Origin: Halopelagius longus
GTDB taxonomy: Archaea > Halobacteriota > Halobacteria > Halobacteriales > Haloferacaceae
Direction of reading: 5' to 3'
Assembly: GCF_900100875.1 (NCBI RefSeq)
Contig: NZ_FNKQ01000001.1
Location: 62,001 to 126,000 of the forward strand
DNA length: 64,000 nucleotides
Numbering within the stretch: position 1 is the stretch's first letter; each line of letters starts with the position of its first letter. A program made the translations under genes and the position numbers. The notes beneath the pieces are model-generated. The model did not search any database. It was not told the DNA's origin and saw only the letters and a list, made by a program, of their open reading frames with translations. Of the stretch, positions 1 to 6,616 are shown piece by piece.

Positions 1-2
1 TA

Positions 3-419
3 GCACTTGGTCTGTTAAATAGCATACCGTTCGACTACTTGATGAGACGGAAGATCGAGAGGAACCTCGTGATGTACAAACTAACGGAATCACAGGTGCC
101 GAGGCTTACTGAGGGCGATGATTGGTTCAACTACATCTGGGAGCGTGCTGCTCGTCTCAACTGTTATGGGACTGCTTTTGAGGAGATGAGGAATCGGCTG
201 GGTGGTATTGAGCCAGTTGAGGATAAATCGAAGAGGATGGATGTACGGGCAGAGATAGATGCGGCTTCATTCCATGCGTACGGTCTAACTCACCGTGACA
301 CAGAATTCGTTCTCGATACTTTCCACCGTGTATCCTCACCACGTGTAATGACCGACGAATACTTTGATACGGTCCTTGAGAAATATGACCTTCTTAAGCG
401 GGAAGGTCCATACTCATAG
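3..419 (+). CDS. DNA adenine methyltransferase, PglX/Eco57I-like, C-terminal fragment (5' end outside window)
   Basis: The reading frame is open from the left edge, so this is the last 138 residues of a longer protein rather than a 126-residue gene starting at 39. The visible start, LGLLNSIPFDYLMRRKI, is the type of segment found in the target-recognition part of large Eco57I/PglX-type N6-adenine methyltransferases. The later stretch around FHAYGLTHRDTEFVLDTF is the usual C-terminal helix of that family (known forms read H-LYGL-x(4)-ILDTF). The catalytic NPPY motif would lie upstream and cannot be seen. The gene converges on the TBP-like gene with 23 bases between stops. Codon use is AT-richer than the rest of the window. 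The family is fairly sure; which defence system it belongs to is inference. Confidence 0.72.
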   Translation, partial: ALGLLNSIPFDYLMRRKIERNLVMYKLTESQVPRLTEGDDWFNYIWERAARLNCYGTAFEEMRNRLGGIEPVEDKSKRMDVRAEIDAASFHAYGLTHRDTEFVLDTFHRVSSPRVMTDEYFDTVLEKYDLLKREGPYS

Positions 420-442
420 TTCAACATGTTTTATTAAAGGGA

Positions 443-1042
443 TTATCTCTGTATATTGTCCAATTTGTCTTTCAGCCGGGTGAATTCTTTTTGAAGGGCC
501 TCTTCAGAGCGCGGACCGTTTACTGACACCTTTCCCGTCGAAAATACTGTAATAGTAGTCTCCTTCGAGGGCCGATAAAATAAACCGGGAAACTGTTCTG
601 GTTCATATTCTACTTTATCAGACGGTAATTCCTTAAATATGATAGACAAATCTACTTCATTGCCAAGTTCGCCAATACCGACTAAGTATCTAATCTCGAA
701 TTCAGGTGTACTCTCGAGACTAAAATCAGTTATTTCTGATACTTTATCCCTAAACATTCCATCGACTTCGAACAATTGACTGACTGAATTGCCTCCCGCA
801 ATGCTGTATTTTCCACTTTGGAAAAGAGTGACCGTAGGTAAGTCGCCTGAGATAGTCACATAAGCCATTGAGTCCCCGGATTCGTAACTATACTCGAATG
901 AAGAGTCTGCTAATAGTTTATCCAGTTGGAGTTCAACTCCCAGTTCGCCACCACCAACCGCATTTACTACCTGTACCACGTTACTTGACATAGGGACATA
1001 TTGATGAAATACAACCCGGCTCCACCCGATTTGTGCAGTCAT
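443..1042 (-). CDS. Divergent TATA-binding protein (TBP) paralogue
   Basis: A 199-residue protein made of two TBP half-repeats. Repeat 2 is unmistakable: EYEPEQFPGLFYR followed by TVFSTGKVSVNGPRS matches canonical archaeal TBP, including both phenylalanines (EQF and VFSTGK) that intercalate at the TATA box in TBP structures. Repeat 1 is degenerate: the EPEQFPGL block is replaced by unrelated sequence, while LFQSGKYSIAGG is kept. By eye, three of the four intercalating Phe remain. It lies 16 bases after the PLD-helicase gene on the same strand, so it is probably co-transcribed with it. An internal ATG at 991 (MSSNVVQVVNAV) fits the usual TBP N-terminus better and may be the true start. Housekeeping TBP should be elsewhere. 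The role is unknown: autoregulation, or sensing or diversion of viral transcription, are guesses. Confidence 0.8.
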   Translation of the reverse strand: MTAQIGWSRVVFHQYVPMSSNVVQVVNAVGGGELGVELQLDKLLADSSFEYSYESGDSMAYVTISGDLPTVTLFQSGKYSIAGGNSVSQLFEVDGMFRDKVSEITDFSLESTPEFEIRYLVGIGELGNEVDLSIIFKELPSDKVEYEPEQFPGLFYRPSKETTITVFSTGKVSVNGPRSEEALQKEFTRLKDKLDNIQR

Positions 1043-1058
1043 TCATGGATACATACCA

Positions 1059-4000
1059 TCATTTTCCAATCACTCCCCAACAGACAAGTTGAGCCTTCAC
1101 CTGACTCTCTCTAACGAGTTTAGCCTGATACTCAGTAGACGCCTCAATATTCTCTTCAAGGAATGCCTCTAGTTCTTCGAGGAACTCGGTTGACGGCCAG
1201 TCCGGGAACGACTCGTACTCCACATGATGTCGGAATGTCTCGCGGAGAATCCGGTCTTCGTCGGTGTTCCCTAGTTTAATGCCCTTCAGCCGACCGTGGA
1301 GGTCATCTGCCCACTCACCTATCGTCTCGTATTCTTCACGTGAGCAGGGGTCATCCCCGAAGTTCGTCTGAATATAGTGGGCGATGAAGTCCAGAATTGT
1401 CTCCTGCTCCTTTGAGTAGGAGTCACCCTGTTTGAACGCGCCCTCAACCTGCCCCTCGCGTATCGATTCGAGCCTCTCGTCGAGAACGTCCGTAATCTCC
1501 TCGCGGTTCGCCATCACGTGGTCGGTGTTCCCCGAGACCGGCTCACCTTCGACAGACGGACTGATGGAGAGTGTCTGTACAGACCGCTCCTTCACGTCGT
1601 CGCTGAACGGCTTGTAGTAGAATGCCCGTCGAACACGTCCGAGTGGGGCATTCTCATCTTCACTATCGAACCAGAGGTGCGCAAGCCCAAAAACACCCGG
1701 ACGCGGCCCCCTGTCGTGGTTGATAGCATTCGTATAGAGGAACTCTCTTTCTTCCGGCGGGTCGTCGAAAAAGTCCTCGGCGTACTCGAAGTCGTCAGCC
1801 GTGAGCCCGTACTCCTCGTTCAACTCGCGTTTGAGCAGGAAGCGATCGTATGCGGCTTCCTCGTTACTTCCCGCATTTCGTAGGAGGGGGTTCTTCGAGG
1901 TATCGTCAAGTTCATTCACGTCAGAAACCTCGCGAGACCGCCGTAGCGAGTCCTCGATTTCATCGACCTCCAGTTCCCCGATGGTCTTCTGCGTATCGAC
2001 GCCCGCCTTCTCTAGAATCTGATCCTCGTTCGGGTCGAGGATGTTGTTCTCCTTCCCGACGATGAGCGCGATGTCGTTGATTTTCGCCTGCAGTCGCTTC
2101 AGCAACTTGATGGCCGCCTCGATGTCCCCGTCAGGGTAGAAGTTGTGGACGTGCTTCTCCGCCGTACTCCCGATACGGTCAATGCGTCCGACCCGCTGGA
2201 CGATGCGCATCGGATTCCACGGCAAGTCGTAGTTGACCGCGACCTGAACGTCCTGTAGGTTCACACCCTCGCTGAGCGTGTCGGTCGCGACGACGTACTG
2301 GAGTTCAGTTTCGTCCGACTCTGCGAGCGTACTCTGATACCCGGATGCCTGCGGTGCGAACCGCTGGATGATGTCTTGCTTGTTCTCATCGCCGCCTTTC
2401 ACGACCGCGCTGTTCCCCGCTGTCAACGGTGAGTCCGGGTTATCGCGGAGCGTCCGATACACGTAATCGGCCGTTCCTCGATATTGGGTGAAGATGAGGA
2501 CTTTCTTATCGTGACTCTGGAGGACGCTTGCGAGGCGGTCGATTTTCGGGTCGCGGAACTCACGCAAGGAGAACACGGCCTCGTAGAAGTCCCGAGTCGC
2601 GGAGTCTACTTCCGTCAGGTCGCTCCTCGGGTACAGGATGGGATTCATCTCTTCCTCAGGGACATCAGGGAGCGTGCCTGCGTTATGGTCGTGGAGCCAC
2701 TGTCGAACCGTGACTGCGTGGTCACTCACGTCTCCAGTATCCCGTGCCACATCCCCGATGAACTGCGTGAGGAAGTACGCGATCAGCGTCAGGTCCTCGC
2801 GGATGTAAGTCTTGACCTCCCCAATAGTCGCGTCTACCAGTTCGTCCTGCGTCTCCGATTCACCCCCATCAGCCTGCACGGCGGTCGAGTCGAAGCCGAA
2901 TTCTTCGAGTGTCTGTTCGAGATCTTCGGCGGCGTCCTTCCCTTCAACGAAGTCGTCGATGGTTGCAGGGGCTTCTCCGTCCTGTACCGCACGGAGCAGT
3001 TCGATGTCTTCGTCTTCAGGCAGATCCTCCAGCAGACCGAGCAGTCGCCGCTCACTCTGGTGCAATGTTTCGATGGACTGCACGAACGCGTATGTCGAGG
3101 ACTCCAATCGCTTGAGGAGATTCAATTTGTAGAGGGCTTTGAGTGTACTCCCTGCCTTCGGGTTCTTCACCGTGATGTGCGGGAGATGGAGGGCGTCCAT
3201 TACGTCGGGAAGCATTCGGTAGATAGGCTGGTAGGCGGGCGGCAGCGAGTACTGTTCCTTGTGGAGTTTCGGTGGTTTGAAACTCATCTCGAAGTCCTCG
3301 TCGTCCTGAATCTGGTCCTTGACGTGCTTGCGCGTCCGCAGAACCATGACCTCGTTGAGGATATTCGAGATCTCCTTCGACTGGCGCTGCAACTGCTCGG
3401 TGATTTGCTGCTGCTTCTCGTCGGAGACCTCCTCCTTCCCAGCGGCGATGCGCTTGCGTATCTCCGCGAGTTCGATGTATTCGTCGAAGGCGTCGAAGTC
3501 GAGTGAGGCCTTGTTACGAATCTCCTCTGGGCTTGTGAATAGACTGATGAGGTTCTTTAGATCAGTAGCGCTGTTGTTAATGGGTGTCGCGGTCAGCATA
3601 ATCATCGTCTTCCCACGCAACTGCCGGAGGTTCGCGTGCCGCCGCGTCCCTTTGTAGTCATCGTCATGGTCGGGGCTCGGTCGCCACTTCCCAAAGTTAC
3701 GGAAGCGGTGGGCCTCGTCAATGAGTAGAACGTCGAAGTCGTCGCGGAGGTCCTGAACCTCCTCGTAGGTGAGGTTCTGGAACTTACTGACGCTCATTAC
3801 ATCGAGGTGAGTTCCGTCCATCTCCAGCCCGAAGTAGGGGTTGCCGTCCTCGTCGGTTCCATCTTGGAGGAGGTCTTCCCACTGATCGGTCAGGTTCGCC
3901 GGAACAATGAGGAGACAGCGATCACCGCGCTGTCGATAGTCGTAGAGGAGTTCACCACCGATAAATGACTTCCCGAGCCCAACAGAGTCGGAGATGATAC

Positions 4001-4856
4001 AGCCGTCGTACTGGGAGAGTTTCTCACGTGCGCTCTCATAGCCGAGTTTCTGGAAGTAGTACAACGGACTATCTCGTGCACTAACGTTGCCACTTAGTTC
4101 ATCGTAGGCGAGCAGTTTGTAGAGTTCAAACGGTTCGAGGTACGTTCCAAGGGTTTCTGTTTCTTCCTCCTCTTCCGTCTTCTGTTTCTCCTTCCACTCG
4201 CGATAGCGGTCGCTGTTATCTATGACGTCGATGATCTCCTCAGAGAACTTGTCAGAGTTTGCCCACTGATTGTCATACCACTCCTCAAAGGCTTGAGCAT
4301 CACTCGGTTCTTGGCTTGTAAGATTGAGTTCGACGTTGTGTCGATGACCCGTCTGCGAGAAATTTGATGAACCGATGATGGTGACTGATCCTCGTTTGTC
4401 CTTTTCTCCCTCTCGACGTGAGGAGTCATCAACTGCTTCGCGGAAGCAGGCACCTTTTGCGTGGAAATACCCCTGTTCAGGGTCCCGGACACGGATATCA
4501 ACGATGTCCTGAGCGATGAAGTCTCGAAGCCTATCGAGACGGCCTAACTGAGCGTTGTTCAACTGATTAATGTCATCTTCGAGGTCAGAGATGAACTGCT
4601 CTCGAAGAGACTGCCCTTCGTCGACTTCCTCGACGGTTCGACGGTCTGTCTGTCTCCCCATGAGGATGCGCATCGGAGCAGTATCGAGGACATCTGGATC
4701 GAGAAGGTTTTGCAGGTCATCTTTGACGAGGTCAAAACCGGAGAGATAGAAGTAGCCAGTCGCGATCCGCACTTCCTCTGATTCACGGATTACCTCCTGA
4801 TAGACGTCCTCAAGTTTCGTATCAGCGTTGTCGACGAGCGGTTCGACGTATTGCAT
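1059..4856 (-). CDS. PLD-family nuclease fused to SNF2-type helicase
   Basis: 1265 residues. The N-terminal 200 or so form a phospholipase D-like domain: HxK in FHAKGACF (H132, K134), GSSNFSQTG near 162-170 and HNVELN near 173. An SF2/SNF2 ATPase follows: Walker A SVGLGKS (291-297), DEAH (about 380-383), TATP (about 422-425), a long acidic and coiled insertion (450-750), then the second RecA lobe with ATDTLSEGVNLQ and the arginine-finger motif QRVGRIDRIG (about 887-896). The last 350 residues are unassigned. PLD-helicase fusions occur in restriction, BREX and DISARM-type loci, where they translocate on and possibly cut foreign DNA. The partners here are a PglX-like methyltransferase and a TBP-like protein. 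Start ATG 4856 sits in a 108-base divergent region shared with the BRCT gene. Confidence 0.85.
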   Translation of the reverse strand: MQYVEPLVDNADTKLEDVYQEVIRESEEVRIATGYFYLSGFDLVKDDLQNLLDPDVLDTAPMRILMGRQTDRRTVEEVDEGQSLREQFISDLEDDINQLNNAQLGRLDRLRDFIAQDIVDIRVRDPEQGYFHAKGACFREAVDDSSRREGEKDKRGSVTIIGSSNFSQTGHRHNVELNLTSQEPSDAQAFEEWYDNQWANSDKFSEEIIDVIDNSDRYREWKEKQKTEEEEETETLGTYLEPFELYKLLAYDELSGNVSARDSPLYYFQKLGYESAREKLSQYDGCIISDSVGLGKSFIGGELLYDYRQRGDRCLLIVPANLTDQWEDLLQDGTDEDGNPYFGLEMDGTHLDVMSVSKFQNLTYEEVQDLRDDFDVLLIDEAHRFRNFGKWRPSPDHDDDYKGTRRHANLRQLRGKTMIMLTATPINNSATDLKNLISLFTSPEEIRNKASLDFDAFDEYIELAEIRKRIAAGKEEVSDEKQQQITEQLQRQSKEISNILNEVMVLRTRKHVKDQIQDDEDFEMSFKPPKLHKEQYSLPPAYQPIYRMLPDVMDALHLPHITVKNPKAGSTLKALYKLNLLKRLESSTYAFVQSIETLHQSERRLLGLLEDLPEDEDIELLRAVQDGEAPATIDDFVEGKDAAEDLEQTLEEFGFDSTAVQADGGESETQDELVDATIGEVKTYIREDLTLIAYFLTQFIGDVARDTGDVSDHAVTVRQWLHDHNAGTLPDVPEEEMNPILYPRSDLTEVDSATRDFYEAVFSLREFRDPKIDRLASVLQSHDKKVLIFTQYRGTADYVYRTLRDNPDSPLTAGNSAVVKGGDENKQDIIQRFAPQASGYQSTLAESDETELQYVVATDTLSEGVNLQDVQVAVNYDLPWNPMRIVQRVGRIDRIGSTAEKHVHNFYPDGDIEAAIKLLKRLQAKINDIALIVGKENNILDPNEDQILEKAGVDTQKTIGELEVDEIEDSLRRSREVSDVNELDDTSKNPLLRNAGSNEEAAYDRFLLKRELNEEYGLTADDFEYAEDFFDDPPEEREFLYTNAINHDRGPRPGVFGLAHLWFDSEDENAPLGRVRRAFYYKPFSDDVKERSVQTLSISPSVEGEPVSGNTDHVMANREEITDVLDERLESIREGQVEGAFKQGDSYSKEQETILDFIAHYIQTNFGDDPCSREEYETIGEWADDLHGRLKGIKLGNTDEDRILRETFRHHVEYESFPDWPSTEFLEELEAFLEENIEASTEYQAKLVRESQVKAQLVCWGVIGK

Positions 4857-4927
4857 CTATCACGTCTGTCTCGTCATCGTTGCTTAATGTTTCCCCGGAA
4901 CGCCGAAGGACTAACCGAGGGTGCGAA

Positions 4928-4937
4928 CATATAACTA
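4928..4937 (+). promoter_or_regulatory. TATA box of the BRCT gene
   Basis: An AT-rich catataacta stretch centred about 32 bases before the ATG at 4965, the expected place for an archaeal TATA box giving a very short leader. It lies in the 108-base gap shared with the divergently transcribed helicase gene, whose own promoter is less clear. Confidence 0.5.
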
Positions 4938-4964
4938 ACTCTGAATAAACCATCTCTGCATCCC

Positions 4965-5762
4965 ATGCCCTCAACCGAAATCCCCGACGATGTCGGTGGT
5001 GCAGACTTCCGGAACGCGTCTGACCTCGATGGGTGCAAAGTCGTCTGTACGGGAAGACTAGAGGAGGTAACTCGTGCTGATTTCAAGGAGATCGTTGAAA
5101 GCTACGGCGGTAAGGTGACGAACAACATCTCACAAAAAACCGACGTCCTAGTCGTCGGCGACAACCCCGGAACGGAGAAAATCGAGTTCCTCCAAGAGCA
5201 TGAAACGCCTACCCTCACCGAACACGGATTCTACTCTCTCTTTCCGGAACGGTTCAAGCACGTCGACGGAGTACTTGACGAATCAGGTGGGCAGTCCACA
5301 CTCCCCAAAGGTGCCGAAGAGCGTGTTCAGATCGAACTCAGTCCGTTGGCTCTCCATCTAGCAGAGGCCACTGCCGAGGAACAAGGAGAGGACCTATCGG
5401 GTCTCTGTAATCGTTCAACTCGGAACCTCCTGAAGGGGGTGATTGATGGCGACCACCCATCTATCGAGACTCCAGAGAACGCGGAAGTAGTAGAAGTCAC
5501 CCTCCCAGAGGGTCTCTTTGCGATGGTTGAGACAGCAGTCGAAACTACGCCGGAAGCAGAGACAGTGGAGACGTTTGTCGCGGAGGCAGTAAAGAGAAAG
5601 ATTGGATTCAAATCCGGTGAGACGCAAGAAGTGAAATTGGAACTCCCTCAATCTGCGGTCACCCTACTCCAGAAGGTATCGCAGGACGAGGAGCAAGACA
5701 TGGAAGCGGTCGCCGAGAAGATGCTCTTGAGTGGACTTCGATTACAGTTAGAATCGCCGTAG
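4965..5762 (+). CDS. BRCT-domain protein with three C-terminal ribbon-helix-helix-like repeats
   Basis: 265 residues. Residues 20-95 form a BRCT domain like the one at the end of NAD-dependent DNA ligases: GCKVVCTGRLEEVTR, then ESYGGKVTNNISQKTDVLVVGDNPG in pieces. The C-terminal half carries three diverged copies of one unit, a short amphipathic strand followed by two helices: about 119-157 (VQIELSPLALHLAEA), 174-213 (VVEVTLPEGLFAMVE) and 221-262 (EVKLELPQSAVTLLQ). That unit resembles ribbon-helix-helix (CopG/Arc) DNA-binding folds. BRCT domains bind DNA ends or partner proteins, so this may be a DNA-end or nick sensor or a recruiter for the neighbouring helicase-nuclease. It is divergent from the helicase gene. 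BRCT is confident; the RHH reading is inference. Confidence 0.78.
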   Translation: MPSTEIPDDVGGADFRNASDLDGCKVVCTGRLEEVTRADFKEIVESYGGKVTNNISQKTDVLVVGDNPGTEKIEFLQEHETPTLTEHGFYSLFPERFKHVDGVLDESGGQSTLPKGAEERVQIELSPLALHLAEATAEEQGEDLSGLCNRSTRNLLKGVIDGDHPSIETPENAEVVEVTLPEGLFAMVETAVETTPEAETVETFVAEAVKRKIGFKSGETQEVKLELPQSAVTLLQKVSQDEEQDMEAVAEKMLLSGLRLQLESP

Positions 5763-5834
5763 ACTAGTCACCACCGGAACGAGTCATGACAAGACGGCTC
5801 AAGGATTATCACGAGAGAGCGAGAAAGGCCAACC

Positions 5835-6179
5835 ATGAGCGCAGACGTCACTGAGACTGCCACAAAATCAGATTACGCTAACCTCGTCGCAGATATCGTT
5901 GGTCATCCCACAGGGGCACCGACTGTAGAAGAATTAGAATACATGAGTCCGTCAATTCCGATTGGAGAGCTACAGAGTCATCTTAGGACTTTAGAACAGA
6001 CAGGTGTTATCGAACTGATGGAGACGGACTCACACACCTTTTGTCGACTTACGAACGATGCCTGGAAAGAATTCGACGAGAGAGGGTTGTTTCCGGAACG
6101 ACCATGGAGGCGACAGTATTCTCGGGTTCAGAAGACGACTAAAATCGAGAGACTCGAAGAGATAGATCGACCGTGGTGA
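5835..6179 (+). CDS. Small winged-helix (ArsR-like) transcriptional regulator
   Basis: 114 residues. Residues 14-78 read as a winged helix: a first helix (YANLVADIVGHP), a helix-turn-helix (TVEELEYMSPSIPIGELQSHLRTLEQ in parts) and a wing (GVIELMETDSHTFCRLT). This is the pattern of haloarchaeal ArsR/MarR-like small regulators. No metal-binding Cys/His cluster is visible. It follows the BRCT gene on the same strand after 72 bases and is the last gene before the tRNA, so it may be the island's regulator. The target is unknown. Confidence 0.65.
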   Translation: MSADVTETATKSDYANLVADIVGHPTGAPTVEELEYMSPSIPIGELQSHLRTLEQTGVIELMETDSHTFCRLTNDAWKEFDERGLFPERPWRRQYSRVQKTTKIERLEEIDRPW

Positions 6180-6543
6180 CAGGCTGGTATGGTCGGGCGG
6201 TTAAAAAAGAAGGTTGGGAGAACTGTTCGAGACATAAAGATGAACGAACAACGATTTGTATTGATATCCCGATTACATTCAATCGTGTAGCACCGGTGGA
6301 TTAGTTTTCTGACGTATTTCTAGAATTCACTGTAGACTGTATCCATTCTATCTCCCTCGCTAATAAGCGGTTCATGACAATACAATGGATAGAATTACCT
6401 ATCTTGGTCACGTTTGACTCTAGAGAATCACGTGACGGCGACGACCCGGGATATGTAGCATGACGAACTCACCTTACGGACAAGGACGGGGTACATAAAC
6501 GATCTACCGCCGTCTGTTGAATTCAGACCGTCATGGAGAATGA
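6180..6543. other. Non-coding AT-rich gap between island and tRNA
   Basis: I see no gene in these 364 bases. Composition is much AT-richer than the sequence beyond the tRNA and matches the island. No second copy of the tRNA 3' end is present between 1 and 6540, so if the island was integrated here its other attachment site lies outside the window. Confidence 0.6.
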
Positions 6544-6546
6544 CGG
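6528..6546. repeat. Perfect inverted repeat at the tRNA 3' end
   Basis: CCGTCAT, a 5-base loop (ggaga), then ATGACGG. The hairpin runs into the last bases of tRNA-Arg, so it would form in the 3' trailer of the precursor. It could be a processing or termination element, or part of an integration site. Confidence 0.5.
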
Positions 6547-6616
6547 ACCCGACGGGATTTGAACCCGCGACATCTTGGTCCGGAACCAAGCACTCTGTCC
6601 GCTGAGCTACGGGCCC
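6544..6616 (-). tRNA. tRNA-Arg (anticodon CCG)
   Basis: A complete 73-base cloverleaf reads on the minus strand: acceptor GGGCCCG/CGGGTCC with one G-U pair, D arm GCTC-loop-GAGT, anticodon arm CTTGG-TTCCGGA-CCAAG giving anticodon CCG, five-base variable loop, and T arm GCGGG-TTCAAAT-CCCGT. The discriminator base is G, and CCA is not encoded, as usual in haloarchaea. No intron is seen. It decodes CGG. Its 3' end faces the AT-rich island at 1-6540, the standard orientation for integration into a tRNA gene. Confidence 0.96.

Follow-up and report, generated by a model that had tools for sequence, protein, structure and literature searches.

Ribbon-helix-helix (RHH) proteins have been described chiefly as regulators that bind DNA, with base contacts made by the side chains on the outer face of the strand. 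Single chains with two RHH units have already been found, among them TraY and AvtR. TraY of the F plasmid, a DNA-binding protein of the relaxosome, has been described as a monomer with the entire RHH dimer fold within one polypeptide, and binding of its strand in the major groove has been reported (PMC12117103). For the BRCT domain of RFC1 in isolation, a preference for 5'-phosphate ends has been reported, with a Kd of ~10 nM on DNA with a recessed 5' phosphate (PMC9293009, PMC9293004). Here we describe a haloarchaeal protein, BRCT-RHH3, in which a BRCT head is joined to a tail of three RHH-like units (the RHH3 tail). A literature search found no paper on this tail and none that combines BRCT and RHH.

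The gene lies in the 64,000 nucleotide stretch of the Halopelagius longus genome that was analysed, referred to here as the window (Table 1). It is divergent from the gene for an HKD-Snf2 helicase, with which it has a short upstream region in common. The first-pass annotation had read the product as a ligase-type BRCT domain followed by three RHH-like units in one chain. This reading agrees with the open reading frame, with the Pfam match of the BRCT domain and with the positions of the unit motifs, which begin at residues 121, 175 and 222 and are thus spaced by 54 and then 47 residues.

Table 1. Features of the BRCT-RHH3 gene and its neighbourhood (positions in the window)
Feature	Position	Strand	Size or residues	Remarks
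Eco57I / type IIG restriction-methylase, 3' end	1..419	+	1211-aa product	gene begins upstream of the window
TATA-binding-protein (TBP) paralogue	443..1042	-	199 aa	homologue adjoins the Halorussus copy too
HKD(PLD)-Snf2 helicase	1059..4856	-	1265 aa	divergent neighbour; homologue adjoins the Halorussus copy too
TATA-like tataac	~4930			upstream of the BRCT-RHH3 gene
BRCT-RHH3 gene	4965..5762	+	265 aa	ATG start
BRCT domain	5016..5258	+	residues 18-98	Pfam, PDB, conservation
RHH unit 1	5316..5444	+	residues 118-160	AF2 E118-125, H127-139, H144-160; TraY fold match; 8u12 profile match
RHH unit 2	5484..5603	+	residues 174-213	AF2 E174-181, H182-194, H201-213
RHH-like unit 3	5625..5753	+	residues 221-263	helices only in monomer model, H229-238, H246-263
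Small ORF	5835..6179	+	114 aa	weak helix-turn-helix matches, E ~0.06-0.13
tRNA-Arg(ccg) 3' end, inferred attachment site	6544..6566	-		exact 23-bp copy at contig 40606-40628

Residues 21-92 match the BRCT family PF00533 in Pfam (E 3.7e-13, 50 bits against a cut-off of 21.3), and in a PDB sequence search the nearest solved chains are the BRCT domains of human RFC1 and bacterial LigA (E 4e-10 and 9e-10). By sequence, the domain is of the ligase/RFC1 type. The full-length AF2 model, built from an alignment of three sequences only, is mostly below pLDDT 50 in this region, and the fold assignment therefore rests on sequence. The 265-aa protein lacks clamp-loader and ligase domains, unlike RFC1 and NAD-dependent DNA ligase; no Pfam match was found in it to the adenylation, OB or HhH domains of the latter. 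An ANTAR match (E 0.03-0.08) was judged to be chance. The other BRCT match of the host genome sits in a separate 876-aa frame.

Could this head sense a DNA end or nick, as the first-pass annotation supposed? The 5'-phosphate site of RFC1, which we take to be T415, G416, R423 and K458, aligns with T29, G30, R37 and K72, and these four residues are invariant in all three BRCT-RHH3 proteins. They are also present in RFC1 and, with one or two exceptions, in the haloarchaeal LigA rows, a comparison that rests on the in-frame rows of an alignment in which three others were in the wrong frame or off register. K50 is common to BRCT-RHH3 and RFC1 but absent from the haloarchaeal LigA copies. The supposition is made plausible by the retention of every residue aligned with the RFC1 site, and we infer that the BRCT head may bind ends or nicks.

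The evidence for RHH units in the tail comes largely through its relatives. In a single-sequence repeat test the result was near chance, with only the pair of units 1 and 3 scoring above shuffled sequences (p 0.006) and the other pairs at ~0.43. When profiles were made from 24 homologous tails, the units matched one another in pairwise hhalign tests at E 1.6e-7, 9.8e-7 and 9.5e-10, and with these relatives included the repeat is convincing at the sequence level. At E<1 the tail profile matched eight PDB chains, and judging from their names and what is established about them, seven are RHH proteins; the E values were weak (0.009-0.7). Different chains were matched by different units, the Rv0298 antitoxin and one CopG chain by unit 1, NikR and a CopG chain by unit 2, and EndoAI and ParD by unit 3. 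Members of the tail family, including unit 3 of relatives, reach Pfam RHH_1 at 7.7e-6, above the cut-off. The profile searches thus favour the RHH assignment through the relatives, while the window protein itself matches no Pfam RHH family at E<1.

Fold prediction supports the annotation for the first two units. Units 1 and 2 are modelled by AF2 as strand-helix-helix at pLDDT ~72-94 (E5-12, H14-26, H31-47 and E61-68, H69-81, H88-100 in the numbering of the tail model). Unit 3 of the window protein is poorly modelled, as two helices without a strand or strand partner (pLDDT ~47-64). The tail model matches F-plasmid TraY (Z 12.3; rmsd 2.6 across 96 residues, 10% identity), single-chain Arc (8.3), AvtR (6.8), DndE (6.3) and VirC2 (4.6), and the full-length model agrees on these fold matches. 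The assignment of unit 2 draws on the matches to TraY and single-chain Arc as well as on the NikR profile. Matches of the tail model in BFVD were to RHH proteins of archaeal viruses. In TraY, the best structural match, two RHH units on one polypeptide make the whole dimer fold, as in units 1 and 2, but there is neither a third unit nor a BRCT domain. Both are also missing from AvtR of an archaeal lipothrixvirus and from VirC2 of pTi, single-chain RHH-type folds of which the second is a weak match.

Units 1 and 2 are RHH units, and the models give good confidence that they would close into one complete RHH pair in cis. Because such single-chain pairs are known from TraY and AvtR, these two units can do without a partner, which leaves unit 3 as the only one unpaired. 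Unit 3 would be an unpaired half, the odd one out, which may pair in trans with another chain.

Full-length BRCT-RHH3 homologues were found in two distant haloarchaea, Halorussus litoreus and Haloferax prahovense, at 46-52% identity and with the layout conserved. The first search of the genomes of relatives returned LigA-type BRCT domains and one tail-only match in a 587-aa frame; with the tail as query, the two full-length homologues surfaced, along with tails on other proteins. A search of genome contigs with the single protein found no homologue, whereas one with the three-protein alignment found both. No homologue was found in viral contigs, and plasmid records gave only BRCT matches that covered at most 34% of the query.

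The tail is far more widespread than this. At E 1e-8, using profiles of 8 and then 24 tails, it is present in at least 38 of 391 haloarchaeal genomes and at least 23 of 86 genera, counts that are lower bounds, with ten candidates scored per genome. Among 294 genomes across the phylum, just two weak, short matches were found outside the order (E 1e-4 and 9e-4, in frames of 89 and 77 aa), and these resemble single CopG-type proteins. Three matches at the weak end of the haloarchaeal set (L062, L064 and L065) were also single CopG-type proteins and were left out of the count. The tail forms the C-terminus of SF2 helicases, TFB-repeat, HNH-repeat and metallo-beta-lactamase proteins, and others, and no Pfam family spanning the whole of it was found. 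It is a previously unnamed haloarchaeal module carried by varied DNA-handling proteins. The architecture that had seemed unfamiliar to the first-pass annotation is thus complete in two further haloarchaea, but its tail, as a recurrent module on many other proteins, had been overlooked.

The closest tails to those of BRCT-RHH3 belong to ~580-aa haloarchaeal proteins (L071, L072 and L021), with which they group in a tree (local support 0.955). In these proteins another N-terminal part replaces the BRCT domain, with a weak cold-shock-like match in one member. One locus of this class includes genes for TBP, an Eco57I methylase and a SNF2 helicase, as are found near BRCT-RHH3.

Does the tail read DNA? 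The first-pass annotation took it for a DNA-binding arm, and the TraY, Arc and AvtR folds that it matches are all DNA binders. Such an arm, in which a dimer would read a DNA site through two or three RHH pairs, might anchor the BRCT head at particular sites on DNA, or might repress the promoter of the divergent helicase gene across the short region that the two genes share. That region was searched, however, and no inverted repeat was found. The strand also differs from those of standalone RHH proteins. Across 24 tails the inward strand positions are 85-94% hydrophobic, so that the pattern of the strand is preserved. The outward positions, of which each unit has three, have a mean net charge of -0.76 (72 units) compared with +1.24 in 21 standalone haloarchaeal RHH proteins, a contrast with a nominal p of 3e-10 in which the controls are non-independent and represent about four RHH families. 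Lysine or arginine is present at outward positions in 19% of the 72 units and in 67% of the standalone proteins. In the window protein the outward triplets of units 1, 2 and 3 are RQE, VET and EKE, and the net charges of whole tails range from -14 to -29. One control family, of the VSVSMP type, has a neutral outward face and is probably functional despite it. As judged from these residues, the acidic or neutral face argues against an arm that reads sequence, and we consider the DNA-binding arm unlikely.

The alternative that we favour is that the tail would be a device for assembly, not a domain that reads sequence. The acidic or neutral outward strand points this way, as does the presence of the same tail on unrelated proteins that are often encoded in clusters. 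Of the six genomes with more than one strong RHH3 match, five have them together, within ~2-21 kb (G028, G215, G263, G282 and G379), and tail-bearing genes at times form clusters of 2-4. In the sixth, G212, one contig carries two identical copies, close to its opposite ends, and one more lies elsewhere.

How specific might this assembly be? The odd units could act as a heterotypic docking tag, pairing with those of other RHH3 tails so that helicase, nuclease-like, TFB and BRCT proteins share one code. Adjacent genes for different RHH3 proteins are in keeping with this: G215 has three inside 2.3 kb, G282 and G379 have helicase/HNH pairs, and in G028 and G263 a TFB gene and a helicase gene form a divergent pair. 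The genomes that bear BRCT-RHH3, the host included, nevertheless contain no second strong RHH3 protein, and so any pairing by the window protein must be with itself. A docking tag is decidedly unlikely in our estimation. A broader version, in which RHH3 tails serve haloarchaea as an assembly code whose odd half-folds force pairing between chains and so bolt interchangeable heads (BRCT, helicase, HNH-repeat, metallo-beta-lactamase or TFB) together in mobile defence clusters, is possible but still on the doubtful side.

Two arrangements of RHH3 genes were observed in their own right. At L068:8183-13481, on the minus strand, three neighbours (a helicase, a standalone 179-aa tail and an HNH-repeat protein) end in or consist of RHH3 tails. 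At L021:8518-12001 and L085:3173-7941 there is a conserved divergent pair in which a TFB-repeat-RHH3 gene faces one for a PbeA-like helicase-RHH3 protein.

The BRCT-RHH3 gene of the window is part of a defence-like cluster on an integrative element, a setting that the first-pass annotation had also missed. The element, of ~28 kb, is inserted at tRNA-Arg(ccg) and spans contig 40606-68566 (window 1-6566); the 114-aa ORF sits between the BRCT-RHH3 gene and the tRNA, and the second copy of the 23-bp repeat adjoins an integrase gene. GC is ~0.49-0.52 in interior blocks of the element compared with ~0.64-0.70 outside it. Two integrases, ParA, a CoiA-like protein and the restriction-methylase/helicase/TBP cluster were recognised among its genes.

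At the Halorussus locus the same four kinds of gene (BRCT-RHH3, HKD-Snf2 helicase, TBP and restriction-methylase) are found together, and at the Haloferax locus an HmaB-like methylase, an HmaC-like ATPase and a SNF2 helicase adjoin BRCT-RHH3. Methylase and SNF2-helicase genes are thus found beside BRCT-RHH3 in all three loci, and BRCT-RHH3 genes adjoin both the Hma system and modules of type IIG restriction-methylase and HKD-Snf2 helicase. Since the window and Halorussus clusters are alike and that of Haloferax belongs to a different defence system, Hma, no single system is defined. BRCT-RHH3 is not a listed component of the PADLOC models that were scanned; its BRCT domain alone matches a candidate model, PDC-S48.

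The presence of TBP genes raises the question of whether the protein is instead a transcription regulator of the element, its tail recruiting or remodelling a promoter complex in concert with the adjacent TBP. Two of the three BRCT-RHH3 genes have a TBP paralogue beside them, one gene of the ~580-aa class has one nearby, and TFB repeats occur elsewhere in fusions with a tail of this type. It is not obvious what a BRCT domain would do at a promoter, however, and the neighbours recognised at the Haloferax locus include no TBP gene; we regard this explanation as improbable. As a separate observation, restriction-methylase and SNF2-helicase genes are accompanied by TBP paralogues in three haloarchaea (window 443-1042, minus strand; L066:8802-9413; L072:595-1140).

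Taken as a whole, our preferred reading is of an adaptor, which we advance tentatively and at somewhat less than an even chance, in which end or nick binding by the BRCT head is combined with a trans-dimerising odd tail in the service of a restriction/helicase defence module. The head would act as the BRCT domains of RFC1 and LigA do, binding DNA at a 5'-phosphorylated end, nick or gap, as the conserved residues suggest. Units 1 and 2 would pair in cis, as modelled, and the odd unit 3 may pair with unit 3 of a second chain. In such a dimer, the two BRCT heads could grip a pair of ends, or both sides of a gap, or could bring a partner there. Because genes for a type IIG restriction-methylase, an HKD-Snf2 helicase and TBP share the integrative element, the genetic setting suggests that the most likely job of BRCT-RHH3 is an accessory one within a mobile restriction/helicase defence module.

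An adaptor of this kind would link end recognition by BRCT domains to archaeal restriction/helicase modules. The recurrence of the acidic-faced tail suggests that mobile and defence clusters of haloarchaea have adopted the RHH fold for coupling proteins to one another. Two predictions can be tested, namely dimerisation through unit 3 and a preference of the BRCT head for ends or nicks.

Helicase-nuclease genes of the PD-(D/E)XK and UvrD types and a gene for a VWA protein were also observed in the surroundings of other RHH3 genes, at L094:1069-14701 and L095:5697-17001, where they adjoin metallo-beta-lactamase-RHH3.
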